A DNA stretch of 64,000 nt, taken from Blastocystis hominis (Eukaryota; Sar; Bigyra; Opalinata; Blastocystidae). The notes beneath the pieces are model-generated. The model was given only the letters and a program-made list of their open reading frames with translations, was not told where the DNA came from and ran no database searches. Position 1 is the stretch's first letter, and each line of letters starts with the position of its first letter. The position numbers were made by a program, and so were the translations under genes. The stretch is from the NCBI RefSeq assembly GCF_000151665.1, contig NW_013171849.1:920480-984479 (forward strand), read 5' to 3'. Below, one piece after another: positions 42,034 to 62,177 of the stretch.

Positions 42034-42280
42034 AGTAGTAGGAAAATGGCGCATAAAGCGCGAAAATTTTTTCGGCCTTTTTTCTGCCATTTTTTTTCCT
42101 GACCTCCTTTTTTCTACCTGGTCACCTCGAGTACCATGGCGCATAAAGCGCGAAAATTTTTTCGGCCTTTTTTCTGCCATTTTTTTCCTGGCCTCCTTTT
42201 TTCAACCTGGCAACCTTGATGGCCATGGCGCATAAAGCGCGAATAATTTTTCGGCCCTTTTTCTGCCAATGTGGTAATTG
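42034..42280. repeat. Left terminal inverted repeat (247 bp)
   Basis: The first 60 or so bases (AGTAGTAGGAAAATGGCGCA on) match the reverse complement of the right end. Compared with the right copy it has an extra internal block at about 42130-42205, a second copy of the CATGGCGCATAAAGCGCGAA / TTTCGGCC / TTTCTGCC module. The inner limit is the shared CCAATGTGGTAATT. Confidence 0.9.
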
Positions 42281-42318
42281 GGGGAGCTTTGCTCCCCCGG
42301 GGAAGCTTCGCTTCCCCC
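42280..42318. repeat. GGG-CCC hairpin pair, locus 1
   Basis: Two joined hairpins next to the left TIR, beyond the 3' end of PolB: GGGGGAGC around a TTT loop, then GGGGAAGC around a TTC loop. Confidence 0.9.
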
Positions 42319-42374
42319 ATTGTCTGCCCTTTATACACTGTTTGATAAAGAAAACAAAGTAAAAAACTTCTCCT

Positions 42375-45300
42375 TTACATGTCCTTCAATCGGTAATGTC
42401 CAAACGCAAGTGTGTGCACGTTGTCGTCCAAGATCCAACGTTTGTTATCCGTGCAAGTCATAAGGGTCTTGGTCTGCTCCTTCGTGCTGATATCGAAGGC
42501 CTGGTTGTTGATACGCTTGAAACTGCCTTCGATCACTGCATCTTCCTTCTTCTCTGCCTCAAGTACACGCTTGTACAATTCGATGTTCTTCACGCTCATC
42601 CTCTCACCGTCAATCACGACGTTGCGAGGTACTCCCTTCGCTGCATTGTGTATCACTTGCTTCTCATCAACCAAGCAGTACATCTTCGGTCTAAGTCCAA
42701 CGAACTCCGTGATGGATGTCCGTTGTGCTCGTCCTTGAAGATAGGACCAGGCAACTTCTTGTTGAAATTGAGGAACGAGTCCAATGAAGGGAACTTGCTC
42801 TTGTCCACTTCGTGATCGTAATACTTCACGAGTTCTCCATAGAAGTAGCTAGTGTTATCCAATTCCGAGAAGTCGAATGATTTGTACATGTCACACATCT
42901 TGTGAACGATGTTAGTGCGATCGTGCAGTTGCACGATGAGCGAATCCGTGTCCTGTCCCAACAACTCCACGGTGTCGAATGTCGTCTTGAGCACGTTGTA
43001 GTAGAAATCGTATATGATGTGTTTGGACATGTCGAGAATGGCGAACCCGATGAAGAATGGCTTCTCCACCCTGCGCACCGGTGTGTTCAGCTTGATACCG
43101 ATGAGATTCTCGGAATACATGGTTGTCCCAGCGATCATATCGTACCCATGCTTCTGAATGATGGCTTCACGTTCATTCCACGTGTTAGCGAACTTCACTT
43201 TCATCCGTTTCAACCCAGTCTCAACGAATTTGCCATAGGTTGAGTTTGCTAACAGCTTATACAGGTTCTTCTCCACAGTGGTCTTGGACTTGGCTCGTTT
43301 CTCACTCAGCATGTTCACGTACTCGAAGATAAATGGTGCCTGCTTGAATCGAATGAGGTGGTGAATGTGTGTGACACGATATCCCTGTTGAATGCCCAGT
43401 TGCAACAGTGAGTAATGCACGAGATACTTTCGACGAGGCACAAGATCACAGATGAGCTTCGGTGTATTCACCTCTTTCACTTTGTCCACAATGTCGTTCT
43501 TCTCTGCGTACTTCTTGATTCCATCAGAGTACATACCCGCCTTCTGTACGGGGAAGAATGGCAGGTCATTGAACTTGTCGTGCAGCTCCACTGGTGCCTC
43601 GATATCACACTCGACGAAGAATCCATACTTGCCGAACGTCTTGAGTGATTGCACCCACCCATTCGGGTCACGATTGATCCTCTCCATCACTTCTCGTCGC
43701 TCAGGTACACCCACCAACTCATAAGGCATCATTCGATGCATGGCTCCACCGTACAGGTTGTTGGCGTCCAGGTAGTAGATGCCTTGGGACGACGTTGCTT
43801 GCTCCTTGTTGTCAATGTCAACCTTGGCATGCCGTTTCACGATCTGTGTGATTCCTCCTCGTAGGTTCTTCAACAATCGCATGAAGTCATCGATATCATT
43901 TGTCTCCATCAATCGAATGCCCTTGCTCTCATAGAATTCACCCATGCGATTCAAGAACACTTTCACCAGTTGTTTCTCGGCGAGTCCCTCGTTGGCGTTG
44001 ATGCGCATGATGTACTGAGCCCATTTCCTTGCGAGGGTCATGAGGCTACTCTCACTATGATCGCCCTCCATTGTCACCTTCAAGAAGAGCGAATAGGCCA
44101 TTTGTGGTGCTGTGATGTAATGCATTGGATCAACACCGAATGCATTCAGTGTGGTAACGCGGAAGTGTTCGAATGCATCGGCCATGAGAGTCACATCGAG
44201 TACATTGTACAATTCGTAGTATTCACCCCATGTCTTGATATCGAAGGTCTTCCACAGCTTCACCATGTGATCATATTCGTCTTGTGGCATCATCTCACCC
44301 TTCATATCATCAATGCATTGCTCGCGAGAAGGAATGACGGTATTGTTCAATGACTCGTACGACTTGATGAGACTGTAGAACATGGGTTCTTTCCGTGTCA
44401 ACAGATCGATGTATTTATCATCCCATTGCTTGCCTCGAGACTCACAGTACTTGCGTAGTTGTTGTTTGGTGTGCACATAGAGGTCCAAGTTACCTCCAAG
44501 TGTCTGTGCCACAATGGAACGCAGTGGACTGCTGATGAGCTTCAACGAGTCCTTGAATTGAATGCCATTGTACTCGATCTGCATCTCCTTGTCTTCAGTG
44601 GTTGGAATGACTTCGAGATTCCCGCCAGGCATCGTCGCGATGAGCTTCATGATGAATGTGAAATCATAGTGCGATCCATTGTGAAAGTAAACTGGCAGAC
44701 GATAGTTCTTCTTGTTGAATGAGAGTTGTAGGTTACACTTGGTGCAACAGGTGCAGATGTACTGTCCGGCTTCGAAGTGGCGTACTTCTCCCTTTCCTGT
44801 AGTGTATTCACCTGCCACATGTGCGTGATGACGTACCTTGTCGTCCTCCAGTTTCTTGCGACAGAAGGGACACACGGTTGTTGCACGAAAGTCCTTCTCG
44901 ATGCTCGGAGAGTTCTCGAGGGGTAATTCATCGAATAGATATGTTTTCACACTCCCTTGCAATTGCACGAGATAGTCCATGAAAGGACGAAGCTCTTCTT
45001 CGCTCTCGTGTGGTGCATGGAAGACTCGCAGTTGGGTATCAATGGCAGGAATACGTGACACGGCTAGACAGGATAACATGATCGGCTTGTGTCTGTTCTT
45101 CTCATCAATGGCCGACTCGAAGTCAGCATACACGACGACCGGTGCTGGCATTTCATATCGCTGGTTCGTGAATCGCAACCGAGTCTCCTCGTTCGATAAC
45201 TCGTATTCCTCACTCTCATTGACGAGTTCACGATGTGTTTGTACTTCGTGAGCATGAACGGCTTTACGAGATCCGAAGAAGTCGTCACAGAACCTGCACT

Positions 45301-46801
45301 TCACGTTTCTCGTTGTATGTCTATTCTTTGCATCACTTCGTCGCATCATACGATGCTTGAAGTCGTTCAAGTCCTTGATGTACAAGAAGTGCTTTGGAGT
45401 GCCCTCAGGTAGATTCAAGTCGTTCAAGATGCAGAGGGAGAGAGGGGAACGTGATTTCTCCTTACCTTTGTACACGACATCGCATGTGAATAAATCGAAT
45501 TGTTCCTTCGTCTTATCGGTGTATCCAGGCAAGAGTGTGACCTCGAATACGTTGAGCGATACTTTCAACAATGCCTCCAATGCGGCGAATTTCTCTTCAC
45601 TTGCATCGAAGGGTGCATTGTCACGAATGCCCATCGTCTCCTCCACTTCGTGAATGGTCACTCCGAACACCTTGTTCTTCTCAGGGTGCTTCCACCACTT
45701 GTTGTACACGGTTGCATCGCCAATCTTGCAATTCGCGACGATCTTGTGCCCACCTTCACTGGCCAGAATGAGACACCGCTGCAGGCACCGGTTGTCATCG
45801 AAATCCGGGTTGAGCGCTGTGCGTCCGATGACGTACGGTGTGTGCTGCTTGTACCCCACGAATGTACGTAGTGGGAACATCTCAATGTGGAAGCCGATCC
45901 AACCATGGTACTCGAACCCACTTCCCTCTGTCTCCTGTTCTTCCACAGCATTTTTGTACCATTTCAGGTACTCCTCGATCCACTCATCGATGCGATCTCG
46001 TCGAACGATGCGGAGGTGTCCCAATCGATCATCGGTGAGGTTGAGGATCTTGGGATCTCCGTCATGTGTCAACATGAGGTTGTATGCCATGATGGTGATG
46101 AAGCACTGATTGTATTCACGCATACCATTGAGGATGTACTTCTTCAAGACTTCATTGAATTCATTTGTCTCATCGAATATGAGATTGATCGGTTCCACTT
46201 CCTCATCGCTCTTCTCACCCGGTAGTCGAACCCACAACCTGTTGTCAAAATCGTTGTTGAGGCGAAAGTCCTTCTTGGTTCGTTTCTCTTTCACCCACTC
46301 CTTGTACATGTCTCCTTGTACGGTATGATAGTACGTGAGTGCATACCCGAGAGTTGAATCGATCACATCACTCAATCGTCCCTGTGATACCTTGCGATCG
46401 AATCGTTCGTATGCCTTATTACGTCTCATTTCACGTCTCTTCTCCACGGTGTTCAGGTAAGCGGGTAAGTGACGTTGTCGCTTCTCACCGAACTTGTGCC
46501 CATCCCACTCGTACTGGTTGTAGAGGTCATTCCATGCCTCGCTTCCTACGTACACGTGCTTTCCCTCGATGGCAGGGTTTGCTACTCGCTTACGACGTGT
46601 TGCCTGTGCTTTCGGTGTTGCTAGTTTCTTCCCGAATATCTTGTTCGACACATAGGCTCTCGTGTCAGGCATGGTCTGATCGGTGAACGTATCACCGACC
46701 CTGTAGTACTTGGCAGCCAATCGTTTCCAGGTCGGTCCACCGATTTTGATTTGTTTTCCTGTTTCAGGGTTGATAGTATATCCTTCGCGTTGTGAATCCA
46801 T
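42375..46801 (-). CDS. Protein-primed DNA polymerase B (Polinton PolB), frameshifted near the 3' end
   Basis: Replicates the element from terminal-protein primers. The upstream frame (46801-42653, 1382 residues) has two adaptor-like modules (INPETGKQIKIGG...), a C2H2 finger (CRFCDDFFGSRKAVHAHEVQTH), exonuclease I VVVYADFESA, a Cys/His zinc region, exonuclease II-like FHNGSHYDFTFI, exonuclease III NVLDVTLMADAF, then polymerase motifs A (YLDANNLYGGAM), B (KLLANSTYGKF) and C (GQDTDSLIV). The conserved thumb motif EFVGLRPKMY lies in the -1 frame from about 42713 on, and that frame continues to a TAA at 42375. One missing base near 42713 explains this. If real it removes the last 100 or so residues. 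No introns. Confidence 0.92.
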
Positions 46802-46878
46802 TTATATAAGGGTCACAAAATCTTTAAGTGGTGATACACGTGTGACCAAAGTGAAATAGTTAGGAGCTTGGCTTACTC

Positions 46879-47307
46879 CTAGAATGGGAAAATGGCATGA
46901 CCATCCGTATCGTACTCGAATTCATCGATGTCGTAGAACTCGGATTCCGATGAATCAGAATCACTAGAATTGGGGTCAGCGAATGCAATGCTAATGTCTG
47001 GATCATTATCGTATGCCTCAGCTTCTTCTTTGGTCATTTTCACCCATTGTCCTTTTACGCGTCTGTAGTTGTCATGGAGTAACTCGTAGTATGCTGTGCC
47101 ACCAATAATCATGGAGCGATTGCTGGGAGAAAGAATTCTCGACTTGGGAACATATTTCGTCGTATCTGGTGGTAAAGGTGTATCGTACAAGCGATTCAAT
47201 TTCTCGTCGTACTTGTATCCACGCTTGAGAAGGTTCCAGAAGCGAACTCCGTTGATTTGGATTTCTCGGCCAGTATTGGGATTCAAAGTGTGAGTAGGTC
47301 TATTCAT
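46879..47307 (-). CDS. Small protein with two adaptor-like modules and acidic tail
   Basis: 142 residues directly upstream of PolB on the same strand (77-bp gap). It starts with HTLNPNTGREIQINGVRFW and has a second copy SPSNRSMIIGGTAYYELL, the same pair of modules that opens PolB. The pattern NPxTGxxIxxGGxxWxxL resembles the two-cysteine adaptor domain of large DNA viruses, but without the cysteines. The C terminus is acidic (DSDSSESEFYDIDEFEYD). It may bind PolB or the terminal protein; unproven. No terminal-protein-like domain is obvious elsewhere. Confidence 0.6.
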   Translation of the reverse strand: MNRPTHTLNPNTGREIQINGVRFWNLLKRGYKYDEKLNRLYDTPLPPDTTKYVPKSRILSPSNRSMIIGGTAYYELLHDNYRRVKGQWVKMTKEEAEAYDNDPDISIAFADPNSSDSDSSESEFYDIDEFEYDTDGHAIFPF

Positions 47308-47359
47308 TTATATATTTATATATTTATATTTTCTCTTTTAACCCTAGATGCTTCCCTAA

Positions 47360-47869: not shown

Positions 47870-47878
47870 AAAAGTAAA

Positions 47879-48472
47879 ATGTCGTACATTTTCAGCAGCA
47901 ATGGAAACAACTACACGTTCAAGAAGCTCGACAACATGCTCATCAACATGCCAGAGAAGGACGGTCATCATGTGCTAATTCGAGAGACAGTGGATGGCGT
48001 TCCTCAATACTCGTGGGGGAGTGCGGCTTGTATCGTGAAAGCGAACGAAGCATTTGTCTTCGAGTACACACCAGAGACGACCGAATCGTTCAATGGCGAA
48101 TGGGGTGGTGATGGTATGCCGCCTATGCCGTCCGGATCGTACCTGATAACCACGACTGTCATAACGTACCTTCCTGAAGACATGTTCAACGATTGCATGT
48201 CAATCGAATCGGTGGTTGAAAAGGGTTATCGAGTGCTAGTCACGTTTGACAACACGCCTATCCTAGACAGACCGTACATCGATACATTGAATAGTCTTGT
48301 GTCTCATACTGGTTATGCTGTTGTGAATATTGGGGGAAGCAACGCTTCCCCCTACAACTCTCCTGTCCTTCGTACGTATTCGAATCTTCCTCTCATGCTT
48401 CTAGGTGGTGTGAAGAGCATCACGATCGTTTTCGAACATCTTGGGGACGCTTCTTCTTCTGGTTCCTCGTAA
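47879..48472 (+). CDS. Polinton protein of unknown function, 197 residues (possible small capsid protein)
   Basis: Intact frame, 197 residues, beta-rich by eye (YLITTTVITYLP, GYAVVNIGG, SITIVFEHLG). Size and strand pattern would suit a single jelly-roll penton or minor capsid protein, but no hallmark is visible. One GGG-CCC hairpin (48332-48352) is embedded in frame. The 3' end overlaps the integrase gene's 3' end on the other strand by 53 bp. Confidence 0.5.
   Translation: MSYIFSSNGNNYTFKKLDNMLINMPEKDGHHVLIRETVDGVPQYSWGSAACIVKANEAFVFEYTPETTESFNGEWGGDGMPPMPSGSYLITTTVITYLPEDMFNDCMSIESVVEKGYRVLVTFDNTPILDRPYIDTLNSLVSHTGYAVVNIGGSNASPYNSPVLRTYSNLPLMLLGGVKSITIVFEHLGDASSSGSS
48332..48352. repeat. 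GGG-CCC hairpin, locus 2 (inside a CDS)
   Basis: Single hairpin with 9-bp arms GGGGGAAGC and loop AAC, in frame near the 3' end of the 197-residue gene (encodes GGSNASP). Confidence 0.9.
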
Positions 48473-49407
48473 TGGGTCGATGTGACCTTGCTGCATCTCG
48501 CAATGCATTGGGTTCCTTTCGACTCTTGGATCGCGTGACAGGCGGTGCTGGCTGTGGTTTGCATTTGCTCGCCAGGAGTTCCCAATGATAGCACTTCTGC
48601 TTGCTACCGCTTTCCATATTCTTCACTTCGTACATCAATGGCATGAATCGATCGTCAATGTCAACAACTTGATACAAGTCCTGAGACCATTTGCTAGTCA
48701 ATGATCGCTTTTCCAGAACGCGAGGTCTTCGTGTCACTCGAACATAATCACCCACATCGAATTGAGGTGTTGTGTCCTTCGCTGTCATGTTGGATGGTTC
48801 TGTCTTCTCCGTGTACAAGATGTTGTTGTTCCAAATGTCAGTGGGTGCATATCCGGTGTCTCTGTTCTTCCTTGCATTGTGTTCGACGAACGGCACCATC
48901 GATCAAGTCGAACCACACACCTTTCCATTGATTGAATGGAACCATGATGTCTTCCTTGATATCTCGAATTGCTCGTTCGGCTAGTACTGCTTTATTCGCT
49001 GAATCCATGTGATACATGGTGATGTCGTACTTGTCCAAGATGTTGGTACGAAAGATGGCATTGGTGAACTCGGTACCTCGATCAGAGCAAATATGCTTTG
49101 GTGGTCCGTATGTTTGAATGATATCCTTCATCGCATGCGTGACTTCTGTAGCACTCTTGCTTTTCAGTCGCCGAGCCATCAGGTATTTCGAATATCCATC
49201 AATGCATACAAGGACATACTTGTATCCACGATTCTTGTGGAATCCTGTACTCTTCTGTCTGCCCAACACTTCCTGAATCCATTTGTCTTGTTTGGAAGAG
49301 AAATCGATGAGATCGATGAAGTATATGTTTCTCTTGAATGAACTGATGATCACTCGAGTGGCACCTTTTCGCTTGGCTGGTTTCCTTAGTTCCTTGATTT
49401 CATTCAT
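48420..49407 (-). CDS. Retroviral-like (rve) integrase, split by a +1 frame break
   Basis: Inserts the element and makes the 6-bp target duplication. The first frame (49407-48838) holds the catalytic core: FIDLIDF and VLVCIDGYSKYL (first Asp), HICSDRGTEFTNAIF (second Asp), KAVLAERAIRDIK (Glu). At about 48895 the conserved continuation (VEHNARKNRDTGYAPTDIW) moves to another frame, which runs to 48420 with an SH3/chromo-like DNA-binding end (FDVGDYVRVTRR...YHWELLA) and a basic tail. One extra base explains the shift. An ATG at 48899 could alternatively start the second half separately. The N-terminal zinc-binding HHCC domain seems to be missing. Confidence 0.85.
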
Positions 49408-49409
49408 AA

Positions 49410-49649
49410 ATGAACCGCTTTATTCAATGGCTGAAAAGTGCATGGAAATGGATGAGTGGAAGGAAGAACCACAAACTGGTGGTTGTGATGGGACAGCGAA
49501 GCTGTCCCGGGGAGAGCGAAGCTCTCCCCATTGACTCGAAATGCAAGGACAGATGTCACTGTCTGTGCGTGTACAACGAGAAGAATGGATCCGATGACGA
49601 CAGTGGGAGTGATATATCGATCAGTCCGACAGAGATTAAAGTGAAATGA
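49410..49649 (+). CDS. Small Polinton protein, 79 residues
   Basis: Starts 2 bp from the integrase start on the other strand, so the two share one tiny promoter region. N-terminal amphipathic basic helix (MNRFIQWLKSAWKWMSGRK), then a hairpin pair in frame, a Cys cluster (CKDRCHCLC) and a Ser/Asp-rich tail. The helix might be membrane-active; no family recognised. It could also be non-coding. Confidence 0.4.
   Translation: MNRFIQWLKSAWKWMSGRKNHKLVVVMGQRSCPGESEALPIDSKCKDRCHCLCVYNEKNGSDDDSGSDISISPTEIKVK
49490..49529. repeat. GGG-CCC hairpin pair, locus 3 (inside a CDS)
   Basis: Arms GGGACAGC and GGGGAGAGC, both with GAA loops, back to back inside the 79-residue gene. Confidence 0.9.
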
Positions 49650-49697: not shown

Positions 49698-50135
49698 ATG
49701 AACTGTTGGATGAATGATGAACGTCTTGATATCACACGTAAATACGTGCATGATATGATTAATTCATTTGTTGAGGACCCAAAAGGTACAAATTATCATA
49801 ATGAGTATAATCCTCCTTATATGATGATAAATTCACCTGATCTTCAACATCTTCTTGTGAAATCATGTAATGATGATAAATACATAGTGAAGTATGGGGG
49901 ACAAAGTGGGGCGACAAAGTCGCCCCGGGAAGCCGAAGGCTTCCCACAAAGTCCCGCCGGGGAAGGTTCGCTTCCCCGAAACATTGCTGAACTCCGTGCT
50001 TTCAATGAGAATATCTATGATATCGAAGGTCATCGTGTGATGACATTAGGTGGTGATATAATTATCATTGATATCGATGGTGTTGCATTTGATCAACTCG
50101 AATGTGTATCGGGTAAACGATTACCGCCAAAGTAA
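49698..50135 (+). CDS. Polinton protein of unknown function, 145 residues, with hairpin insert
   Basis: Two conserved-looking halves (MNCWMNDERLDITRKYVHDM to KYIVKY, and NIAELRAFNENIYDIEGHRV to the end) are separated by about 28 residues coded by a hairpin cluster (GGQSGATKSPREAEGFPQS...). The insert keeps the frame. Beta-strand repeats GHRVMTLGGDIIIIDIDGV suggest a small folded domain. Function unknown. Confidence 0.5.
   Translation: MNCWMNDERLDITRKYVHDMINSFVEDPKGTNYHNEYNPPYMMINSPDLQHLLVKSCNDDKYIVKYGGQSGATKSPREAEGFPQSPAGEGSLPRNIAELRAFNENIYDIEGHRVMTLGGDIIIIDIDGVAFDQLECVSGKRLPPK
49896..49977. repeat. Nested GGG-CCC hairpin cluster, locus 4 (inside a CDS)
   Basis: Hairpins GGGGCGAC-AAA, GGGAAGCC-GAA and GGGGAAGG-TTC. 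The first two sit inside an outer GGGAC...GTCCC pairing. The cluster lies in frame in the 145-residue gene. Confidence 0.9.
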
Positions 50136-50185: not shown

Positions 50186-50269
50186 GGGGGCGTTTTACGC
50201 CCCCGGGCAGCTTCGCTGCCCTTACACTAGGGGGAATCGTAGATTCCCCCGGGGGCACGTAGTGCCCCC
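50186..50269. repeat. Four GGG-CCC hairpins, locus 5
   Basis: Between two convergent genes: GGGGGCG-TTTTA, GGGCAGC-TTC, GGGGGAATC-GTA, GGGGGCAC-GTA. The last one touches the stop codon of the fibre-like gene. Confidence 0.9.
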
Positions 50270-51537
50270 TACACTTCCATGATGCTTACCTTCAGTCGAG
50301 TGAAGTAATGTTCGATCGTGGTGTCTCCAGAACGTAAGATTTGAATTTTCATATCTACAGGACGTACTGATGTGAATATGTTCGTGCTACTCAATGTCGT
50401 TGTTGGCACTGGATTATTCAAGCTTGCTTTAATGATTGTAGCTGTCTCGACACCCATTACGAGAGTTGGCACGCTCGTGAATCCTACAAGTGCCTGTTCA
50501 TAGTTGTCACAACGAAGTACGGCATCGATGGTGATCATGTACGTCTTATTGGGTTCCAATTTGATGGGTGCAGAAAGGTCTGAACCTTCCGACGTGAGTG
50601 CCTCGCTAACAACCTGGTGTCCACTTGTCCAGGAGGTGTACTCGAATGTCTTACTCAATTTAGCCGATGTGGGTGATAACGAGACTGTGCCGTTTTCTTT
50701 GACTTCCATGACGTACTTGCCAGCAGTGGATGGGATTGTTAGCTTGGACACGTTGGTCCCATTGTTGTACACGAGACACTTTTCATTGCTAGTACACCCG
50801 AGGATGTCTTTGTAGACGATCTCAGGCGTGAGATTCGTAAGAATTGGACTCTCATTGCTACTCTCGACCTTGAATGTCGCATAGCCTGCCGTGGTTGGCA
50901 ATGATAGACCATAGACAGCATCGTTCCAGTAGGTGACGATTCTCTGCCCATCAGATCCGATTCCTAGAGCTTCATGGAAAAGACTTCTTGGTGTGACCTT
51001 GTTGAACAGGAAGTCATTGTTCGAATCGGCTGAAAGGAAGAACGTTCCCGACTTACTTGGTAAGAATAGATCCTTCGAATCACTCTTGGTCGAATTCCAG
51101 TTCGGTACCGCATACCAGTCCGACGTGCTCGTAAGTTCGAGTGCCTCGAAAATCACGGGCTTCGTCAATGCTTCCAATGAAGGTCCACTATCCGGGTCAG
51201 TCGTGAGAATGAAAGAACCACTTTCTGGCAGATTGATCGCTCCGAACGCCGAGTTATTCTTGAAGAAGGGAATAGCTCCATTGGTTGGAATGATAATCGA
51301 TTGTCCATCGCTGTCCTTGAAATACGAGTTATCCAAGGAAGTGAAATCTTCACCTGCGACGGACCATGTGTACACATCGCCAGTCTTGGTAAGCACGTAG
51401 TTGCCATTGGTCGACGGAAATGCGAACGTGTCAAAAGAGTTGTCCGAGTAGTACTGGATACCATTCATCATCTCCTTGCGCTTGAACACTCCGTTCTGGA
51501 GATAGACTAGTTTCTCAGGTTGTGTTGGTGTTGCCAT
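50269..51537 (-). CDS. Fibre-like repeat protein, 422 residues
   Basis: Contains at least five repeats of a beta motif with the pattern hydrophobic-Pro-Ser/Thr-x-x-Gly-x-Tyr/Phe: FAFPSTNGNYVLTKTGDVY, INLPESGSFILTTDPD, LFLPSKSGTFFLSAD, LSLPTTAGYATFKVESS, LTIPSTAGKYVMEVKENG. Such spaced strands resemble shaft repeats of trimeric viral or phage fibres; the C-terminal 150 residues would be a globular head (PNKTYMITIDAVLRCDNYEQ). A receptor-binding or decoration role on the particle is inference. Flanked on both sides by hairpin clusters. Confidence 0.5.
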   Translation of the reverse strand: MATPTQPEKLVYLQNGVFKRKEMMNGIQYYSDNSFDTFAFPSTNGNYVLTKTGDVYTWSVAGEDFTSLDNSYFKDSDGQSIIIPTNGAIPFFKNNSAFGAINLPESGSFILTTDPDSGPSLEALTKPVIFEALELTSTSDWYAVPNWNSTKSDSKDLFLPSKSGTFFLSADSNNDFLFNKVTPRSLFHEALGIGSDGQRIVTYWNDAVYGLSLPTTAGYATFKVESSNESPILTNLTPEIVYKDILGCTSNEKCLVYNNGTNVSKLTIPSTAGKYVMEVKENGTVSLSPTSAKLSKTFEYTSWTSGHQVVSEALTSEGSDLSAPIKLEPNKTYMITIDAVLRCDNYEQALVGFTSVPTLVMGVETATIIKASLNNPVPTTTLSSTNIFTSVRPVDMKIQILRSGDTTIEHYFTRLKVSIMEV

Positions 51538-51545: not shown

Positions 51546-51633
51546 GGGGAAAAACTTTGTTTTTTCCCCGGGACGACTTCGTGGGAAGCCGAAGGCTTCC
51601 CGGGGCGATGTACATCGCCCCCTTCGTCGTCCC
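51546..51633. repeat. Nested GGG-CCC hairpins, locus 6
   Basis: Between the divergent fibre-like and capsid-like genes: GGGGAAAA arm, GGGAAGCC-GAA and GGGGCGATG, the last two enclosed in an outer GGGACGAC...GTCGTCCC. Confidence 0.9.
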
Positions 51634-51677: not shown

Positions 51678-52967
51678 ATGGCTACTACAATTCCTCCTGT
51701 GCATAACTACGAATCGCAGATTGTGTTCAGCAATCAGTCCAATAACATCAAGTCGACCGATGTGATCAATTGGACGATCGCACCATCCGGTGATGACGTG
51801 TACTTCAATCTGTACAAGTCTCGAATGACGTTCAAGCTCAAGATCACCGGATTGGCAAATAACGCAACAGGTTCACCCAAGGTATTCTATGTTCCGGTGA
51901 AGAAGAACATGTCGGGCATTGTAAACAACACGAAGGTCACGTACACCTATTGGAATGGTGAGAACTTGGCATCCTTGCCTCTGAGTGCAGACAATGAAAA
52001 CATCGGCCAGATCCGGTCACTCTTGAATGCGCTCACGGACAACAAGCACAACAATGTGGTGAATGAAGGATTGAAGGAACTGTCCTACATCTACTACGAT
52101 GCATTGGACTACGATACTGACGATGAAACCGAGAGAGCTGCGGCCATCCTGGGTCGACCTTATGGCGGGAAGTTGTTCTACAACATGCTCAAGTTCGTAC
52201 AGCCACCTGGATCGACCACGGCGTACACGACGATCAATGTGAACTTTGCAGACATCTTTGAAGGTTGTTCCCAGGAACGATTCATCAATCTCACGCAGAT
52301 GGATGCTCAGATCTATCCCACGAACGACGATGCATACTTCTACATCGATGCTGGCAAAATCAATACCGCTACAAGTCCGGACGCTGTTCCATCAGCCACG
52401 GCTTTCACCGGTGTGTACTTCGACACGTGCACGCTTTGGTATCACAGTTACAAGACGAGCGATGATTCGACCTTCGATCCTGAAGACACTCAGTTGGTGA
52501 AGAACCAGATCATGACCAAGACGTTCCGTATTCCTTCTGGCCAGAACTTCATCGATGATCGTGTGCTGGTCAACTTCCCCGTCAAGATGATGTTCATGAT
52601 GTTCACGGACGACAATGGCGATTTCTCGACTCTCAAGGACATTCGATTCAAACGTATCTCATTGAACATCGCTGGTGAACAGAAACGTATCATCAATGTG
52701 GACAACACGAACACACCTGATGGAATTGATCACACGTTCTTCGAATGGATGGACTATCTTTGCAATAGTCGTTCCGACGAGTACGACACGCTGTTGACGT
52801 ACAAGACGTGGTTGAATCAGTTCCGAATCTTCGCCTTCCCGTTAGCCGAGTGGTTCCCGATGCGAGCAGCGAATCAGATCCAGTTCGAAATCGAGTTGGA
52901 AGAGGATGTTGCAGCGACGACCCAGATGCACCTCATCATGATCCGTGCCAACACGGTGGGAGCGTAA
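51678..52967 (+). CDS. Candidate major capsid protein, 429 residues
   Basis: Intact gene. Its size, central position next to the packaging ATPase and beta-rich sequence fit a double jelly-roll capsid protein: SQIVFSNQSNNIKS, DVYFNLYKSRMTFKLKITGL, FIDDRVLVNFPVKMMFMMFTD, FRIFAFPLAEWFPMRAANQI and a last strand pair IQFEIELEEDVAATTQMHLI. The C-terminal pattern (aromatic-rich turn, then two long strands) is what capsid proteins of this class show, but I cannot compare structures. The alternative is the penton or another coat protein. Preceded by an AT-rich leader after hairpin locus 6 and followed at once by hairpin locus 7. Confidence 0.6.
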   Translation: MATTIPPVHNYESQIVFSNQSNNIKSTDVINWTIAPSGDDVYFNLYKSRMTFKLKITGLANNATGSPKVFYVPVKKNMSGIVNNTKVTYTYWNGENLASLPLSADNENIGQIRSLLNALTDNKHNNVVNEGLKELSYIYYDALDYDTDDETERAAAILGRPYGGKLFYNMLKFVQPPGSTTAYTTINVNFADIFEGCSQERFINLTQMDAQIYPTNDDAYFYIDAGKINTATSPDAVPSATAFTGVYFDTCTLWYHSYKTSDDSTFDPEDTQLVKNQIMTKTFRIPSGQNFIDDRVLVNFPVKMMFMMFTDDNGDFSTLKDIRFKRISLNIAGEQKRIINVDNTNTPDGIDHTFFEWMDYLCNSRSDEYDTLLTYKTWLNQFRIFAFPLAEWFPMRAANQIQFEIELEEDVAATTQMHLIMIRANTVGA

Positions 52968-53005
52968 GGGGAGCCGCAGGCTCCCCGGGGAAGCGTAGCT
53001 TCCCC
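52968..53005. repeat. GGG-CCC hairpin pair, locus 7
   Basis: GGGGAGCC-GCA and GGGGAAGC-GTA, starting directly after the TAA of the capsid-like gene. Confidence 0.9.
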
Positions 53006-53655: not shown

Positions 53656-53699
53656 GAGGGAGGAAGCTACGCTTCCTCCCGAGGCAACTTTGTTGCCTC
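53656..53699. repeat. GGG-CCC hairpin pair, locus 8
   Basis: GGGAGGAAGC-TAC and GAGGCAAC-TTT between the 181-residue gene and the ATPase gene; ends 9 bp before the ATPase start. Confidence 0.85.
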
Positions 53700-55497: not shown

Positions 55498-55527
55498 GTA
55501 GCCGTGGGTGTAGAGCTTCCTCAGTAC

Positions 55528-55568
55528 GGAGGAAGCAGAGCTTCCTCCCGGGGCAGCGTCGCTGCCCC
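55528..55568. repeat. GGG-CCC hairpin pair, locus 10
   Basis: GGAGGAAGC-AGA and GGGGCAGC-GTC between the protease gene and the gene for its likely substrate. Confidence 0.9.
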
Positions 55569-56732
55569 TCAGTACACTCTCCTTCGAATCACTGACTCGT
55601 GCATCTTGTTCTCGTTCTGTGGAAGGGCTGTGAGGATGCGATTCTTTTTTTTCGTCTGGACTTCAATTGCTTGTGTCTCGTTGTCCAGGTCAGAAACATC
55701 GTAACCAGTGCCGGCTTTGCTTTCCTTGCCCTGAATCTGGTTTGCCACATCGCTAACCGAATGGGACGACTTTGTCGTCCCGGCGGAACGAAGTGGGGCG
55801 ACAAAGTCTCCCCGGGAAGCCGAAGGCTTCCCACGAAGTTCCGCCACCGTACCCTTCGCCATGTCACCTATCACATTCGCGAGCTGCTTCACGGTGTCCG
55901 ATCCTGTCTTCTGGGATACATAGTTCACACCCTTGTTGATCGCGTTGTTCGCAGCATTCGTGCCAGCATTCACCAGAATATCGGTGATGGGTTTTAACTT
56001 GTCGGCATTGTTGTCGTACCAACCTTTGATCTTGTTCCAGGCATTCTTGAAGAACGTGCCAACACGACTTGAACCGGCGTACAAGGCTCCACCTCGGACT
56101 TCGATGTTTTTACTTTGTCGTTCAATGGCTTTCATGGTCTTCAACACGTCGTCATAATCGCCAGGGTTGATTCCATTGAGGAACACAGCAGAAGCTCCTC
56201 CGAATTTGAGTGCACCTCCCTCCTTACCCTTCACTAGCTCTTTGAGGCTTGAGATGATCTGTGGAGCCATCTGAATGAGCGCTGGGATGATCGTGGCAGC
56301 AAGAGTACCAAGTGCTCCGCCTTTCTTGAGTCCGGTTAGCTCGTTCATCAATTGCGCTTCATTGAATGCCAGTGCGCCACCTGTGTCCGAAGAGAAGCCA
56401 ATGGCACCACCAGAAGCATTAGATTTACATGCACCGGCGGAACGAAGTTCCGCCGAGGGGGAAGCTGTGCTTCCCCCTGCCGCACCTCCTCCTGAGCTAA
56501 CGTCCTTGGTCGCCCCATTGAAAGCAATAGCTCCAGCACTTTTCGCCGAAGTTCGCTTCGGACGACCTTTGGTCGCTCCTCGTTTCTTGGCTCTCTTTGA
56601 TTGCACTGGTGTTTCGAGTTCCTTGTGAAGATTCAATGTCTTGCGTCGGTCCACGATCGTTCCACTATCCTGTTCTCGGAAATCGGGTTCGCCATAGAAA
56701 GCAGATATATCAACAGTGAATGGAATTGCCAT
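55569..56732 (-). CDS. Ala/Gly-rich minor capsid or core protein, likely protease substrate
   Basis: 387 residues. A basic N-terminal patch (KRAKKRGATKGRPKR) and repeated Gly-Gly-Ala-hydrophobic sites: SGGAIGF, TGGALAF, KKGGALGT, KEGGALKF, VRGGALYA, plus SAGAIAF. Adenain-type proteases cut after or within (hydrophobic)-x-Gly-Gly or Gly-x-Gly. Between two sites lies a hydrophobic amphipathic helix (TLAATIIPALIQMAPQIISS), like the membrane-active peptide of adenovirus pVI. A precursor cut into core and lytic peptides is inferred. Two hairpin clusters (loci 11 and 12) are in frame and code for low-complexity linkers. Confidence 0.6.
   Translation of the reverse strand: MAIPFTVDISAFYGEPDFREQDSGTIVDRRKTLNLHKELETPVQSKRAKKRGATKGRPKRTSAKSAGAIAFNGATKDVSSGGGAAGGSTASPSAELRSAGACKSNASGGAIGFSSDTGGALAFNEAQLMNELTGLKKGGALGTLAATIIPALIQMAPQIISSLKELVKGKEGGALKFGGASAVFLNGINPGDYDDVLKTMKAIERQSKNIEVRGGALYAGSSRVGTFFKNAWNKIKGWYDNNADKLKPITDILVNAGTNAANNAINKGVNYVSQKTGSDTVKQLANVIGDMAKGTVAELRGKPSASRGDFVAPLRSAGTTKSSHSVSDVANQIQGKESKAGTGYDVSDLDNETQAIEVQTKKKNRILTALPQNENKMHESVIRRRVY
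55763..55845. repeat. Nested GGG-CCC hairpins, locus 11 (inside a CDS)
   Basis: GGGACGAC-TTT, then GGCGGAAC...GTTCCGCC enclosing GGGGCGAC and GGGAAGCC-GAA, in frame in the 387-residue gene. Confidence 0.9.
56436..56477. repeat. GGG-CCC hairpin pair, locus 12 (inside a CDS)
   Basis: GGCGGAAC-GAA and GGGGGAAGC-TGT, in frame in the same 387-residue gene (encodes ASPSAELRSAG). Confidence 0.9.
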
Positions 56733-56740
56733 TTATGTAT

Positions 56741-56827
56741 GGGGAAATCGTAGATTTCCCCGGGGCGACTTAGTCGCCCCTATGTATGGGGAGAATGAAA
56801 TTCTCCCCGGGGAAGCGTAGCTTCCCC
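56741..56827. repeat. Four GGG-CCC hairpins, locus 13
   Basis: Upstream of the 387-residue gene: GGGGAAATC-GTA, GGGGCGAC-TTA, GGGGAGAAT-GAA, GGGGAAGC-GTA. Confidence 0.9.
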
Positions 56828-56897: not shown

Positions 56898-57854
56898 TTA
56901 TCTCTTTTCCGCAGCGAACATATCCTGGATCGTGTTATATGTTCGCTGCAGATATTCTTCGTAAGTTCCTGTTGCAACAATGTGTAATCTGATGTAGTTC
57001 TTCACATCGGCCAAATATTGAGGAGTTAAATTATTGCTATTAGCTACCTGTATGAAGAAATTCATCAAATACTCGTCTTCATTTCGCTCACGATAGGCTT
57101 TGAATAGACGTGAGAATCCAAGATCACTTGCAAATTGAGTGAAATTAGGATTGTTTACATTGCGAGCAAGCAGACTTGAGAAAGCAATGAAATCATTACG
57201 AATCATTTCTTTTTCAATCGCATCAGCAGTAGCATTATCTTCGTTATTACCTTCGTCGATCAGGGCTGCGACTTGATTTACTTGTTCGATTGCTTGAGGT
57301 GTAAATCCTTGAGTATTTACAACCTCAGGTTGACGATCACCCAAATAGATCACAGCTTGAATTTGTGGTTGATTCATGATCTGTCTATAAGCCTGATTCA
57401 TCCTGTCATTCATTTGCATATTCTGATCCATTATTTGTTGCTGGACCATCTGATTATTATAAAATTCATTTGTCAACATGTTACCAAGTTGAGCCTGTCC
57501 ATTAGCAACATCTGTCAGCAAGTTACCAGTCTGAGTCTGCCCGTTTTCAAGAGCTAGCAAATGTTTATTCGTAGTTTCTATTTCTTTACCCAGAGCATTC
57601 GTGTCATCCAATTATTGCTGCCTAGTCGCCTTTCCCTCATCCGACAATTGCTGCCTAGTCGCCTTTCCCTCATTTTCAACCGCATTACCAAGAGCTACCA
57701 GATTCTGGTTCGAAGCCTGCAATTCATTTGACACGTTTTGAAGCAAAGGTGTGAAATGATTGAATGATTCAACCAACCGTTTGTTGATTGCTTCATATGC
57801 TTTTCCCAACTCAGCAGATACGAATTGCTGAATGAAGCGTTTCGCTCTAGCCAC
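56898..57854 (-). pseudogene. 3' continuation of the coiled-coil structural gene, interrupted by an in-frame TAA
   Basis: From 57854 the helical pattern of the upstream gene continues in a -1 frame (AKRFIQQFVSAELGKAYEAI). After two direct 33-bp copies coding for DEGKATRQQ-like residues there is a TAA at 57614-57612, and the same frame then goes on for 238 more residues (DDTNALGKEIETTNKHLLA to MFAAEKR) with no ATG at its head. The whole looks like the C-terminal half of one long protein. Alternatives: two small real genes using non-ATG starts, recoding of the stop, or sequence error. Confidence 0.5.
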
Positions 57855-59176
57855 TGTTTCAAGAAATCATTGTACTGATTCTTCAAGAACTCCAACAATT
57901 CATCGATTCGCATTTCACTTTGTCTTGGAATCATTGCTACGATATCAGCAATTGCAGGAGGATCGGGTTTGTTTTCAATTCCTTGGAGACGAGTTTCAAT
58001 TCTTTGCAGATATCGATTACTCTCCTGAATCACAGCTTTCTGTTGATTTACCAAGTTACTAACATTCTTAATCAACTTGTCGTCTCCTGTCGCAATGCTT
58101 TTTGCCACTTCAGCATAATTGCCATTTAACAACTTGATTCCTTGGTTTGTATTTTCCAATTTTGCTTGTACACCATTCAACAATTCCAACATCCTAGGAT
58201 AACCTGTCTTCTCATCTTCTAAGAAGTTGATTCGTTGTGCTACTTTGTTGATTGCTACATGAATGTTAGCAAGGTTCGCCTGGATATCGAAGCTGTTCAT
58301 CACAGCAATCACTTCATTCAACTTCTCGAGAATGGGCTTCACATCCATCTTTTGTACGATCTGATTCGTCACATTCACAGGTTGTACTTCGGGTTTGACC
58401 ATCCATCGACCACGTTCAACATAGCCTGCAGAATCCAAATCCTTGTATGCCGGACTACCTCGTTGCACTTTGTGCGTCTTACCATGAACATATACCGTAC
58501 TATTGTCGTCATTCCACAACAGGAATGTTCGCTCTGGATCACCTTGTGCTGTCACATTATCTCGCAAGCCAGAAAAATCATTATGAATTATTGCACTCTG
58601 TTGAGCAAATGAGTTGATACTTTCTCCCATCTGTTGAGCTGCACCCGTTATGGCATCAGCAGCATTCTTCATTTCGTTGATGCTGGCTCCAAGATCACCA
58701 GGCAAATTCACGATTTGTAATTCGCCAGCCGGTGCTGTCGGGAAGATGATACGATAGGGTGATACAGGTTCATATCCAAATGGATTATCAAAGATAGCTC
58801 GTTTCTCCATATCAGACAACTCGTGATTCACAGACTGGACAACGATCTTGTTGAATTGTTTGTCAATTTTAGCATTGTAGACCACATTGTCCTCGAATGA
58901 GTACAACAGTACGTTCTCATCGTCAATTCGCTGCATTTGATATCCACGCATGTCAGAGACGGATACACGGCGACGTTCAGCGGGTGAAAGATTCATGTAC
59001 GAATCAAACAAGGTTCGCTTCTGTCGCCATTGTTCGCTCCTCATTCGCTGTTGATTGAATTCACTTTCAACGACTTTATCGAAATATCGATTCAACATCT
59101 TGTCCATCATGTTTCTCGACTTCACTTTGTGTGGCTTGTATCGAATGATTGGAATTGTAGCAACGTATTCATCCAT
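57695..59176 (-). CDS. Coiled-coil structural protein of the Polinton
   Basis: 493 residues in the first frame from ATG 59176. A basic N terminus (IIRYKPHKVKSRNMMDKML), a folded middle (NPFGYEPVSPYRIIFPTAPA; TFLLWNDDNSTVYVHGKTHKV) and a long C-terminal coiled coil (ILEKLNEVIAVMNSF... QRIETRLQGIENK). The last 47 or so residues (after WLERN) are out of pattern, because the coil continues in the -1 frame at about 57850. Its ATG overlaps the end of the upstream gene by 8 bp. Possibly a particle-internal or tail-like protein; function unknown. Confidence 0.55.
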   Translation of the reverse strand: MDEYVATIPIIRYKPHKVKSRNMMDKMLNRYFDKVVESEFNQQRMRSEQWRQKRTLFDSYMNLSPAERRRVSVSDMRGYQMQRIDDENVLLYSFEDNVVYNAKIDKQFNKIVVQSVNHELSDMEKRAIFDNPFGYEPVSPYRIIFPTAPAGELQIVNLPGDLGASINEMKNAADAITGAAQQMGESINSFAQQSAIIHNDFSGLRDNVTAQGDPERTFLLWNDDNSTVYVHGKTHKVQRGSPAYKDLDSAGYVERGRWMVKPEVQPVNVTNQIVQKMDVKPILEKLNEVIAVMNSFDIQANLANIHVAINKVAQRINFLEDEKTGYPRMLELLNGVQAKLENTNQGIKLLNGNYAEVAKSIATGDDKLIKNVSNLVNQQKAVIQESNRYLQRIETRLQGIENKPDPPAIADIVAMIPRQSEMRIDELLEFLKNQYNDFLKQWLERNASFSNSYLLSWEKHMKQSTNGWLNHSIISHLCFKTCQMNCRLRTRIW

Positions 59177-59870
59177 TCTTTACTGAAGAGGTATAGCACG
59201 AAATCGTGAATGAGATATACACATTCGAATTCAAGGAAATCGGACGGTCATTCGCGTCCGTCAGTACCCAATCAATGTAGTCCAGGTTCGATTGTTCAAT
59301 CACATCGATCGATAGGTTGTCCCAGGTGATCATGTTGTTCAGTCCCATCGATACATGAATCAGATTATCGATAAGCGGACTCTTCAGACCGAATGTTTGC
59401 GCATTGATACTACTGTACACTCGGATCACACTCATGCCATTCGTGATGTCGTATGGCTCTGAGGCAGCAACGTTGCTACCTCCTACCACACCTTCCAACT
59501 TGAGGATACTCGTGTAATCAGGTGCGCCACTAAGGTCAACAGCGGTCGCCACATCACTGTTCAAGTATGCTCGGTTGACATCGTCTACCTGGATGGAATC
59601 GGCTATCGCACGGCATAACTCGGTAATCGAGTAGTAGCCAGGACCGACGTTGTAGACCATTTCATACCCTGACAGCATTTGAACCTTCACGACATTCATT
59701 GCACGAATGTTCCAGAGAGATGTCGTATCGATCTTGCACGTAATCGAAGTGATCTTGTACACAAGGTCACGAGGCATGATCACTGTGTTGAACGTTTCAT
59801 GGTATCGTTCGTTGTTCTTCGGAATTACTGTATTGTGGTTAATCACACTCACCGGTAGTGCACGACTCAT
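59169..59870 (-). CDS. Capsid/fibre-like domain protein, 233 residues
   Basis: One copy of a domain that recurs in this cluster: a turn PGYYSITELCRAIADS, then SGAPDYTSIL, then YDITNGMSVIRVYSSI and a beta-rich end (DANDRPISLNSNVYISFTI). Starts with MSRALPVSV; its ATG overlaps the upstream stop as ATGA. Likely a virion surface protein of the element; the host-binding role is inference. Confidence 0.6.
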   Translation of the reverse strand: MSRALPVSVINHNTVIPKNNERYHETFNTVIMPRDLVYKITSITCKIDTTSLWNIRAMNVVKVQMLSGYEMVYNVGPGYYSITELCRAIADSIQVDDVNRAYLNSDVATAVDLSGAPDYTSILKLEGVVGGSNVAASEPYDITNGMSVIRVYSSINAQTFGLKSPLIDNLIHVSMGLNNMITWDNLSIDVIEQSNLDYIDWVLTDANDRPISLNSNVYISFTISCYTSSVKNG

Positions 59871-60199
59871 TTATTGTGTAGAACATGGAAGTGAATGCAC
59901 ACTGTGATCGGCATTGGTGAGGCAATCGTTGCACCGGTCTTATCGGTCAACGAGAATGACCATTTGCGACTTTTGGGTACCACGACGTTCATGTGCGCAT
60001 TTTCCGTAAACTCCTCGTTCAATACAACCAACGGAGACTGTCGTCGTTCTTGCATGTTGTTCACTCGATCAAGGACAAGGCAGGTGCCAGGCGATTCTCC
60101 CTTCATAGTCACTCTGTCGATTACCATGTCGCTTTTGATGAGATTGTTACTTGTAAATTCATGTTCGTACGTTCGAGCAATGTTGAACACTAGATTCAT
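59867..60199 (-). CDS. Small structural protein, 110 residues
   Basis: Beta-rich; ends SPMPITVCIHFHVL, similar in style to the last strand of the neighbouring domain proteins (VYISFTISCY). Both ends overlap neighbours by ATGA. No family recognised. Confidence 0.55.
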   Translation of the reverse strand: MNLVFNIARTYEHEFTSNNLIKSDMVIDRVTMKGESPGTCLVLDRVNNMQERRQSPLVVLNEEFTENAHMNVVVPKSRKWSFSLTDKTGATIASPMPITVCIHFHVLHNK

Positions 60200-60381
60200 T
60201 TATTATTTCCTCCTGAAACGGTGAATCCGATTAGCAGGTACACGTTACCAATGAACGATAGCGGGTCACCATTTTCGTCCTTCAATTCGTACACGATGCG
60301 ATCAAGCAATTCAGAACATGGTAGCAACATGCGATTCTTGTAGAAGTAGTTCTTGTACAAGTCTGTCCATCGGGAAGTCAT
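60196..60381 (-). CDS. 61-residue ORF completing or following the large structural gene
   Basis: ATG at 60381 overlaps the upstream TGA as ATGA and its own TGA overlaps the next ATG the same way. Its sequence (LLDRIVYELKDENGDPLSFI, VYLLIGFTV) aligns in position with the C-terminal part of the 233-residue paralogue, so it is either the lost end of the large gene after a frameshift or a separately translated piece. Confidence 0.5.
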   Translation of the reverse strand: MTSRWTDLYKNYFYKNRMLLPCSELLDRIVYELKDENGDPLSFIGNVYLLIGFTVSGGNNK

Positions 60382-62177
60382 TCCGCAAGCAGTGGTATCG
60401 TCTTGCTTTTCACGATGTTGCAATACAGCTGTATGTTCGATAGACCGTTCGTGATATCGACAGGATACTCGGCAACCATTGGACCATAGTTGGCATAGTA
60501 CACACCATCGTCGAAAGGGATACGCCATGTATGCGATTGCGATCCTGAAGCGGGAACTATGGTTCCCAGGTTACCACTCAACGAGAACACGTAGTCAGCG
60601 TGAATGTAGTACCCATCTGACTCAGCTTTCCATCGTATGTTCAGTGCAGCCGAGTCAAAACACTGGTTCAAGCGCCATATCATGTCAGCCTGTGTCAGTC
60701 GTGATGGTATGGTCCACGTGAGTGTCTGAATGTCATCCGTGTACGTGATATCAATCTCAGCAGCACTATCGTCTAGTGTCATCATTCCGTACGGGAAGCG
60801 AATCGTCGTGTTAGCCGTGTACGACTCAGATTGTTCCCAGTCAACGAAGGTATTCAATGATGGAACAACAACTTCATCATTCCTCACATAGTGGGGCAGC
60901 GAAGCTGCCCCGGGGAAGCTTTGCTTCCCCACATACGTAACACGTGTCGGTTGTATGAATTCGATCGACACAGCACGATCGGAATACGTACTACCTTTGA
61001 TCATATTCGTCACATTCAGTCCATCGATGTTTGCCATCGCAAACTCGTAAGGTGATGTCAACTCGGGCATCCTGATGTAGTAATTGCGATAAAACTCGAA
61101 ATAACAAGACAAATACACACCACCTGGTTCAGCGTATGGTCCGGGTATAATCTTGAAACATGGATTATCACAAAACAATATGAATCGTGGTTCTGTACCA
61201 TTTCGACATCCCATTCGTACTCGACCACCATTATCTGCAATGACATATACCAAGTACCCTCCGAGAGACGCATCTACATATATCTTATTGATCACATTAG
61301 CGATCATATTCACGATATCAATAGCGCTATAATGACCTCGTTGGATTGTGAGAGGTCTTTCGCCATATCCACGTATTCCAAGTATAAAATTCGTCGTATC
61401 GATAAACACTTTCGTGTGATATATACTATCCTTGGAATACCAAGGTCCGATCGAAGAACCATTCGATGACACCAAGTCACCTGTATTTTCCGATGTGATA
61501 TGCAATTCCAATTCTGGTGCATAGTCCTTCGCAGTCCATGACATGCTTTCTCTATTGTCATTCACCGTCCACGCAATCGCATTCTGGTGAGATGGAGGTA
61601 GTTCCATAGCACTCGCATATCGAGCATTGAGCTCATTAAAACATGTGGTTGTAAGAGTATTCATCTTGATCGGGGTAGACGTATCGTCCGTTATGTAGAA
61701 TTCACCACTATCGAGTACTGAGCCATCAGCTAAACGCATCGTGTATGTCGCGAGAGGCTTTAGCAGGAACCGATTATCAGTCGTACGCATTTTCCAGTCA
61801 TACGCAATGAAGGTGTTTGATCCTATGTACGCATGACCACCAATACCTTGATCATTCGTCATATCAGGAGGGGAATCGCTTTCAGGGTTGAACGAAGCTT
61901 CCACTGGTCGTTCGATGCACAGATTGCGTACTGTTGATGCCAATTTGAACCATGGAGTCCAACCAAAACCATTGATCGTCGTGTCAACACTGGATCGATC
62001 GAAATACCATCCGTCTGCTTGGACATTGAAGCGAACATGATCATCCTCGATCGTCATGGATATGAGTGGAAGCACTTTCACCATTTCAGCACCGACAGCC
62101 TCGATGAACTCGGAGAACGTGTAGTAACCGACAGGCAATGTCAACAAGTGCGATTCCCTGTCATCAGTAACAACCAC
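60378..62177 (-). CDS. Large multi-domain capsid/fibre-like protein
   Basis: About 600 residues; first ATG only at 62084, but the domain begins earlier (VVVTDDRESHLLTLPVGYYTF), so the 5' end is probably joined to the preceding gene by a frameshift near 62200. It holds several domain copies: LPVGYYTFSEFIEAVG, then RGHYSAIDIVNMIANVINK, then IPSRLTQADMIWRLNQCF, and a last VDITNGLSNIQLYCNI. One hairpin pair (60893-60930) is embedded in frame. Probably a surface protein; function inferred only from repeats and position. Confidence 0.55.
   Translation of the reverse strand: MVVTDDRESHLLTLPVGYYTFSEFIEAVGAEMVKVLPLISMTIEDDHVRFNVQADGWYFDRSSVDTTINGFGWTPWFKLASTVRNLCIERPVEASFNPESDSPPDMTNDQGIGGHAYIGSNTFIAYDWKMRTTDNRFLLKPLATYTMRLADGSVLDSGEFYITDDTSTPIKMNTLTTTCFNELNARYASAMELPPSHQNAIAWTVNDNRESMSWTAKDYAPELELHITSENTGDLVSSNGSSIGPWYSKDSIYHTKVFIDTTNFILGIRGYGERPLTIQRGHYSAIDIVNMIANVINKIYVDASLGGYLVYVIADNGGRVRMGCRNGTEPRFILFCDNPCFKIIPGPYAEPGGVYLSCYFEFYRNYYIRMPELTSPYEFAMANIDGLNVTNMIKGSTYSDRAVSIEFIQPTRVTYVGKQSFPGAASLPHYVRNDEVVVPSLNTFVDWEQSESYTANTTIRFPYGMMTLDDSAAEIDITYTDDIQTLTWTIPSRLTQADMIWRLNQCFDSAALNIRWKAESDGYYIHADYVFSLSGNLGTIVPASGSQSHTWRIPFDDGVYYANYGPMVAEYPVDITNGLSNIQLYCNIVKSKTIPLLAE
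60893..60930. repeat. GGG-CCC hairpin pair, locus 14 (inside a CDS)
   Basis: GGGGCAGC-GAA and GGGGAAGC-TTT, in frame in the large structural gene (encodes GKQSFPGAASLPH). Confidence 0.9.

Follow-up and report, generated by a model that had tools for sequence, protein, structure and literature searches.

Fused hairpin pairs of about 40 bp as probable mobile insertions in a Polinton family of Blastocystis hominis

Hairpin pairs and the Polinton that carries them

The stretch analysed here, called the window, comprises 64,000 nucleotides of the 18.7-Mb, 40-contig genome of Blastocystis hominis (positions 920480-984479 of a 1.03-Mb contig) and contains a 21.5-kb Polinton (42034-63517) bounded by terminal inverted repeats (TIRs) and, in the one copy examined, by a 6-bp target-site duplication, TTCATA. 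Its assignment to the Polintons draws on Pfam matches to both a family B polymerase and an rve integrase as well as on the TIRs and the 6-bp duplication; a check for a double jelly-roll major capsid protein gave no Pfam match and a single chance-level PDB match (E 0.59). Scattered through this Polinton are short G-rich hairpins, mostly fused in twos, and we consider it very probable that they are inserted copies of a short mobile element, non-coding and about 36-42 bp long, made of two perfect 7-10-bp hairpins with mostly 3-nt loops joined end to end (GGGG..C-NNN-G..CCCC GGGG..C-NNN-G..CCCC).

A preliminary description of the window had listed about 26 such hairpins, mostly with a 3-nt loop and with neighbouring units fused, and had noticed none in host DNA. 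Counting hairpins with a 3-nt loop, arms of 7 or more and an arm G+C no lower than 0.6, we recovered 26 in the Polinton, spanning 42280 to 60930, and none in the 42,030 + 490 flanking bases (42.5 kb), whereas 100 dinucleotide shuffles of the Polinton gave a mean of 0.12 and a maximum of 1, so that the described hairpins, their excess over shuffled sequence and their absence from the flanks all held. Most are of 8-3-8 or 9-3-9 form with fusion mostly through CCCCGGGG, and DNA folding of four pairs returned two hairpins each at -18.0 to -18.8 kcal/mol (z -5.4 to -5.9). Three 10-kb control stretches (L060-L062), each separated by over 100 kb from the integrase matches listed, held one hairpin, of a non-GGGG type.

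The same confinement was seen across the genome, in which the integrase has at least 153 matches. One arm version, GGGGAAGCNNNGCTTCCCC, occurs at 191 places (0 in a reversed control) and another at 83. Among the first-pattern places, 49 of the 50 checked (of 191, on contigs C1-C7) lie within 15 kb of an integrase match among the matches listed, as do 26 of the 31 places of a further pattern, all of which were checked; the remaining 6 places, which form five loci, align to the window Polinton over 69-99% of their length at 89-96%. The two pattern lists overlap, with certain hairpins counted in both, and about 13% of contig C2 falls within 15 kb of an integrase match; proximity of 15 kb does not prove location inside a Polinton, but the hairpin clusters are element-sized. 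At every place checked (81 places), the hairpin pairs are confined to Polinton DNA.

For an inventory, 57 loci and the window Polinton were combined into 223,945 non-redundant bases, which hold 359 hairpins; 339 of them have arms of 8 or more, and these fall into 43 kinds of inner 8-mer. Nearly all (353/359) close with C-NNN-G, and both orientations of the common loops occur (GAA 68 and TTC 76; AAA 28 and TTT 46; GTA 20 and TAC 23). GNA or TNC loops are found in 206 of the 359; C-GNA-G triloops are unusually stable in DNA. Adjacent pairing involves 260 of the 359, with no gap in 112 of 130 pairs, and merging hairpins no more than 2 bases apart leaves 128 pairs, 100 singles and one triple. Rfam gave no match at gathering score across the window.

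Insertion, target duplication and target choice

Aligning 29 sister integrase loci to the window revealed the same places filled in some copies and empty in others, each of four places compared being empty in some. Even within the window Polinton the left TIR carries a pair with an ATT duplication, whereas the right TIR lacks both. Shorter alleles were found for 118 of 229 hairpin clusters. Because grouping sites by their flanks (118, 63 or 64 groups) overcounts, pairs were placed on the window and occurrences of the same arm pair within 120 bp were merged, yielding 52 distinct insertions, 40 of which have an allele without the whole pair and were scored as gains.

Subtracting pair length from these 40 gains left 7 bases in 19, 6 in 8, 8 in 6, 5 in 4 and another value in 3. 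A second test, independent of empty copies, asked, over all 52 insertions, how well the D bases on the left of each pair agree with those on its right. Agreement peaks at D = 7 (0.47, against a permuted mean of 0.271 and maximum of 0.354) and is second at D = 6 (0.362), neither value being reached in any of 1000 permutations, and there is no signal at D = 4, 5, 8, 9 or 10; mismatches often fall on the base adjoining the hairpin. With 64 flank groups, in which some sites are counted twice, agreement at D = 7 was 0.455. As in miniature inverted-repeat transposable elements (MITEs), the target duplication thus has a characteristic length, with a peak at 7 bp and a spread of 6-8. The element is mobile, and about 7 bp of the target become duplicated when it inserts. 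The preliminary description had named a palindrome-generating mobile repeat among its options, and filled and empty sites, the duplication, nested insertions and the recurrence of one arm pair at several positions all bear that option out.

What moves is the fused pair, mostly 36-42 bp long. Among the 52 insertions there are 43 different arm pairs, against 47.7 on average after shuffling (P 0.008), with GGAAGCC + GGGCGAC at four window positions and six other arm pairs at two each, and no pair combines an arm with itself (2.4 expected, P 0.08). As another candidate for the unit we considered a 42-bp GT..AC element that makes a 3-bp duplication; it agrees with several sites, not with all.

The element tends to insert into palindromes centred on 3 nt, among them the loops of older hairpins. 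At least two base pairs around the duplication centre were present in 12 of 52 insertions when the left copy was used, compared with 1-4 at ten other offsets, and in 10 of 52 when the right copy was used, compared with 0-8 at other offsets. At least five pairs, as expected where an older hairpin was struck at its loop, occurred in 3 of 52 (0.3% of random positions). Further nested insertions in the window lie at 51570-51633, 55782-55845 and 49901-49952; the nesting reported earlier consists of insertions into older hairpins with 6-7-bp duplications.

Table 1. Features of the window, with positions counted from its first base.
Feature	Positions	Strand	Remarks
Left Polinton target-site duplication, TTCATA	42028-42033		Right copy 63518-63523
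Polinton	42034-63517		TIRs start AGTAGTAGG..., end ...CCTACTACT; terminal comparison, PolB and rve integrase by Pfam
Double hairpin in left TIR	42280-42318		ATT flanks 42277-42279 and 42319-42321; right TIR is the empty site
Family B DNA polymerase (DNA_pol_B_2)	42653-46801	-	Pfam, E 5.3e-16
Single hairpin	48332-48352		Pair in L020/L030/L042/L043; empty in L019/L022/L026/L031; loop AAC/GTT flips between copies
rve (retroviral-type) integrase	48838-49407	-	Pfam; open reading frame (ORF) below length of most sister copies among the matches listed
Double hairpin inside ORF	49490-49529		48-bp gain; exact duplication TTG
Pair (49908-49945) nested in older hairpin's loop	49901-49952		7-bp duplication ACAAAGT
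Two double hairpins	50186-50275		Second (50230-50269): duplication TACACT; missing from L016, L028, L029
Hairpin adjoining older hairpin (GGGACGACTTCGTCGTCCC) whose loop is split by pair (51583-51621)	51546-51633		Duplication CTTCGT; between divergent genes
Conserved 429-aa protein	51678-52967	+	85 homologues; Pfam gave no match, PDB no convincing one
Double hairpin	52968-53005		Immediately 3' of stop codon of 51678-52967 frame
Double hairpin GGGAGGAAGC / GAGGCAAC	53658-53699
Pair (55528-55568)	55515-55575		7-bp duplication TCAGTAC
Older hairpin GGCGGAAC-GAA-GTTCCGCC, loop split by pair (55795-55832)	55782-55845		Duplication ACGAAGT; translated in frame
Double hairpin encoding GGSTASPSAELRSAGA	56435-56478		In frame; presence varies among public homologues
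Two double hairpins	56734-56827		First: duplication TATGTAT (56734-56740 and 56781-56787)
Double hairpin (60893-60930) in 60378-62177 frame	60886-60935		Duplication ACATA; 45-bp gain; L055 and L058 empty

Loop inversion and insertions within reading frames

To compare copies of the same site we used 84 copy pairs, leaving out copies whose arms differed at more than 8 positions or whose flanks were overly divergent. Loops invert in place: 127 of 168 were unchanged, 39 were exact reverse complements and 2 had changed otherwise, so that 39 of the 41 changed loops are exact flips; in another count, of 242 loops, 208 had the main form, 29 were flipped and 5 differed otherwise. Arms differed at 18 of 2788 positions and flanks 23-62 bases away at 139 of 5880, but references had been picked for perfect arms, a selection that by itself would roughly halve the arm figure, and arm maintenance is for this reason only suggested. 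The earlier proposal that structure and not sequence is kept needs correcting: arms differ between elements, but compensatory arm change among copies of one site was not seen, and the varied arms thus reflect different elements rather than covariation.

At 48332 a 30-base loss between two GGGGG runs distinguishes two alleles; in this way single hairpins can arise through deletion between G runs. Nearby, at 48442-48456, five different hairpin pairs occur within about 15 bp across copies, a stretch that may be an insertion hot spot or a tolerated linker.

Insertions within genes largely preserve the reading frame. For pairs inside ORFs no shorter than 120 aa and at least 60 bases from either ORF end, gains were divisible by 3 in 19 of 20 cases, versus 11 of 20 elsewhere (Fisher p 0.008; 20/21 and 16/29 before copies were merged). 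Integrase ORFs among the matches listed are often 331, 346 or 361 aa long, i.e., in 15-aa steps. The window's own integrase frame is 193 aa, versus about 330-380 aa in the best sister matches, and the alignment of the best matches ends at residue 180 of 189.

Proteins of other assemblies point the same way. The frame at 55569-56732 has 390 protein relatives, of which the best 120 were examined, the relevant ones being encoded on short contigs of other assemblies. Hairpin-coded peptides were found by motif search in 6 of these best 120. Four of 25 aligned relatives carry the peptide encoded by the 56435 insertion. A different insert stands at that place in P0112, a 79% relative that is also the only one of the 25 with the nested double insert of 55782, one of its loops being flipped. 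At the protein level the flips read GD-F-VAP (TTT) versus GD-K-VAP in P0112, AELRSAG (TTC) versus AERSSAG in P0099 and GGS-T-A (ACA) versus GGS-C-A in P0124. As judged from these protein sequences, with loop bases deduced backwards from the genetic code and not from their DNA, inserts and flips occur in other assemblies as well. The 429-aa protein (51678-52967) had no hairpin-coded insert in 12 aligned public relatives.

Mechanism, alternatives and nearest known elements

How such pairs might move can be sketched tentatively. Polymerases of the Polinton type replicate by protein priming and strand displacement. The moving form may be a folded single strand of Polinton DNA exposed during such replication; strand displacement would expose long single strands in the Polinton and not in chromosomes, which could account for host DNA being spared. 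A putative endonuclease or integrase acting in trans would then make a cut staggered by 7 nt where the target forms the loop of a hairpin or cruciform, the stagger that would be produced by a nuclease cutting two bases either side of a 3-nt loop on both cruciform strands, while strand switching or copying between arms would flip loops and may restore arm pairing. Taken together, this depicts a transposon of about 40 bp, recognised by shape and not by sequence and living only on the Polinton, that moves as a folded single strand during strand-displacement replication, targets hairpin loops including those of its own kind, flips its loops by arm strand switching and seeds 15-16-residue peptides in Polinton proteins; as a whole we offer this picture as possible, holding it with less than even confidence.

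Several observations weigh against the mobile-pair reading or against parts of it. Duplications are often imperfect beside the hairpin: among the 40 gains, 26 overlap exactly by 3 bp or more and 8 by 0-2, and in 6 the value is negative or obscured because the nearest empty copy carries other differences. The right flank copy also gives palindromic centres at offset -4 in 8 of 52 insertions, the non-random pairing of arms is modest in size, and arm maintenance has p 0.02 after correction for the choice of reference. Strand displacement and single-strand intermediates derive from knowledge of the polymerase family. The Polinton proteins scanned match only PolB and the integrase well, with no mobilising enzyme identified among them, and the Y1 transposase profile (PF01797) has 0 matches in the genome, while matching in 5 of 14 control genomes. 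A REP/RAYT system, which relies on a Y1 transposase, was rejected on that result.

The enzyme may be the Polinton's own rve integrase, with the pair as its miniature non-autonomous partner. The Polinton's 6-bp duplication is near the 6-8 bp of the pairs, and 20 of the 64 flank groups show T..A flank bases, which allows the pair ends to read T-GGGG..CCCC-A. Yet the GGGG..CCCC ends share no terminal sequence with the Polinton (AGTAGTAGG), the one element whose TIRs were compared in the way that MITEs are matched to an autonomous transposon; the duplication mode is 7 and not 6, and a preference for loops would be unexpected of this integrase. We regard its involvement as unlikely, if still the best placed of the alternatives.

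Local formation of each hairpin by replication template switching, without transposition, would be compatible with the loop flips and with filler bases, and where L054 corresponds to window 53658, one of the arms is identical to the target sequence. Against it stand the recurrence of one arm pair at four positions and of six others at two each, the preferred duplication length and the many empty sites that lack the arm sequence, and we judge it improbable.

Still less probable are RNA 3'-end or transcription-termination signals, in the manner of the mimivirus "hairpin rule", a function that the preliminary description had proposed alongside a replication or packaging mark. Several sites are intergenic, and mimivirus signals are likewise described as hairpins whose shape is kept without sequence conservation (PMC4402537). 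In the available parts of that source, however, they mark transcript ends and are not described as mobile, whereas the hairpins here also lie within frames and, at 51546-51633, between divergent genes. The claim that they mark most gene borders survives only for some, at least six of about 14 places being inside ORFs, where gains keep frame; with sites empty in some sister copies and duplications of about 7 bp, both a terminator and a packaging signal were discarded. An assembly or sequencing artefact deserves almost no credence: palindromes are difficult to sequence and the DNA comes from one genome only, but public proteins on other assemblies' short contigs have or lack inserts at the corresponding place, with flips.

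We compared the hairpin pair with known elements. Rickettsia palindromic elements are palindromic insertions kept in frame within genes, although they are longer and bacterial. In the open-licence literature, as far as titles and visible abstracts go, no paired hairpin element was described in Polintons, virophages, viruses or nuclear DNA. Three hairpin-pattern scans of IMG/VR viruses (10, 30 and 12 loci) found no double-hairpin family, hairpins in the first 10 loci being scattered over G+C-rich contigs and the remaining 42 loci (391 kb) lacking any hairpin pair; PolB and profile A1 searches found no relative among viral contigs.

The nearest known kinds are mitochondrial double-hairpin elements (DHEs) and yeast GC clusters, with Pandoravirus MITEs as the nearest case in a virus; these comparisons are by description and draw on the available parts of the sources cited. 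DHEs of chytrids and fission yeasts likewise consist of two adjacent G+C-rich hairpins, are optional between relatives and are thought mobile (PMC10085805, PMC7218506). They are, however, mitochondrial, number 1, 5 and 14 copies in three fission yeasts, are mostly intergenic and in several cases identical between species (PMC10085805, PMC7218506), whereas the pairs described here reside in a Polinton on a 1.03-Mb contig, with tRNA-synthetase and coiled-coil sequence in the Polinton's left flank, and show 43 arm types, duplications of about 7 bp, in-frame insertions, loop targeting and loop flips. Yeast mitochondrial GC clusters (GC42) are likewise short, mobile, G+C-rich palindromes that merge and shuffle and have short direct repeats at their flanks, but are described as mitochondrial, sequence-defined and flanked by AG or ACT (PMC4478555). 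Palindromic repeats of Volvox organelles, inserted into one another (PMC2670323), and sponge mitochondrial RHEs (PMC2800124) are presented as selfish hairpins; they differ in being organelle DNA, with nuclear Volvox copies judged inert and no 7-bp duplication in what these sources report. Submariner MITEs are short inverted-repeat elements that invaded the Pandoravirus genome, some within protein genes, and are described as a MITE family without a double-hairpin unit (PMC5799277). In chloroplast minute inversions a segment between short inverted repeats flips in a hairpin-driven manner, as a by-product at ordinary hairpins with no mobile family described (PMC5910586).

Mobile double hairpins have so far been an organelle curiosity. 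The Polinton family offers hundreds of hairpins with invertible loops, clean empty sites, a duplication that can be measured at about 7 bp and a rule for target choice (palindromes and hairpin loops), and because all of these are readable in one genome, the question of how such elements move becomes directly testable. The findings point to a level of parasitism below virus-like elements, namely a gene-less parasite of the Polinton that adds peptides to Polinton genes; a transposon of about 40 bp would, if this holds, be among the smallest known.

Some further features of the carrier and its genome were observed. At least 109 near-full integrase matches belong to one Polinton family (109 of the 110 high-scoring rows among the matches listed span at least 150 of 189 residues) and range from near-identical to decayed with stop codons, indicating a long expansion. 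The TIRs (42034-42270 and 63330-63517) contain two to three internal repeats of TGGCGCATAAAGCGCGAA. The fetched stretches of two small contigs, C31 (11.7 kb; L058) and C33 (10.4 kb; L059), are mostly alignable to the Polinton and possibly represent unplaced copies or extrachromosomal forms. In the left flank, G+C is 0.52-0.55 at 4000-12000, compared with 0.34-0.40 over 16-42 kb, and no hairpins of the double-hairpin family occur there. Finally, 5S rRNA genes are dispersed, with 47 matches across many contigs and six consecutive on C40.

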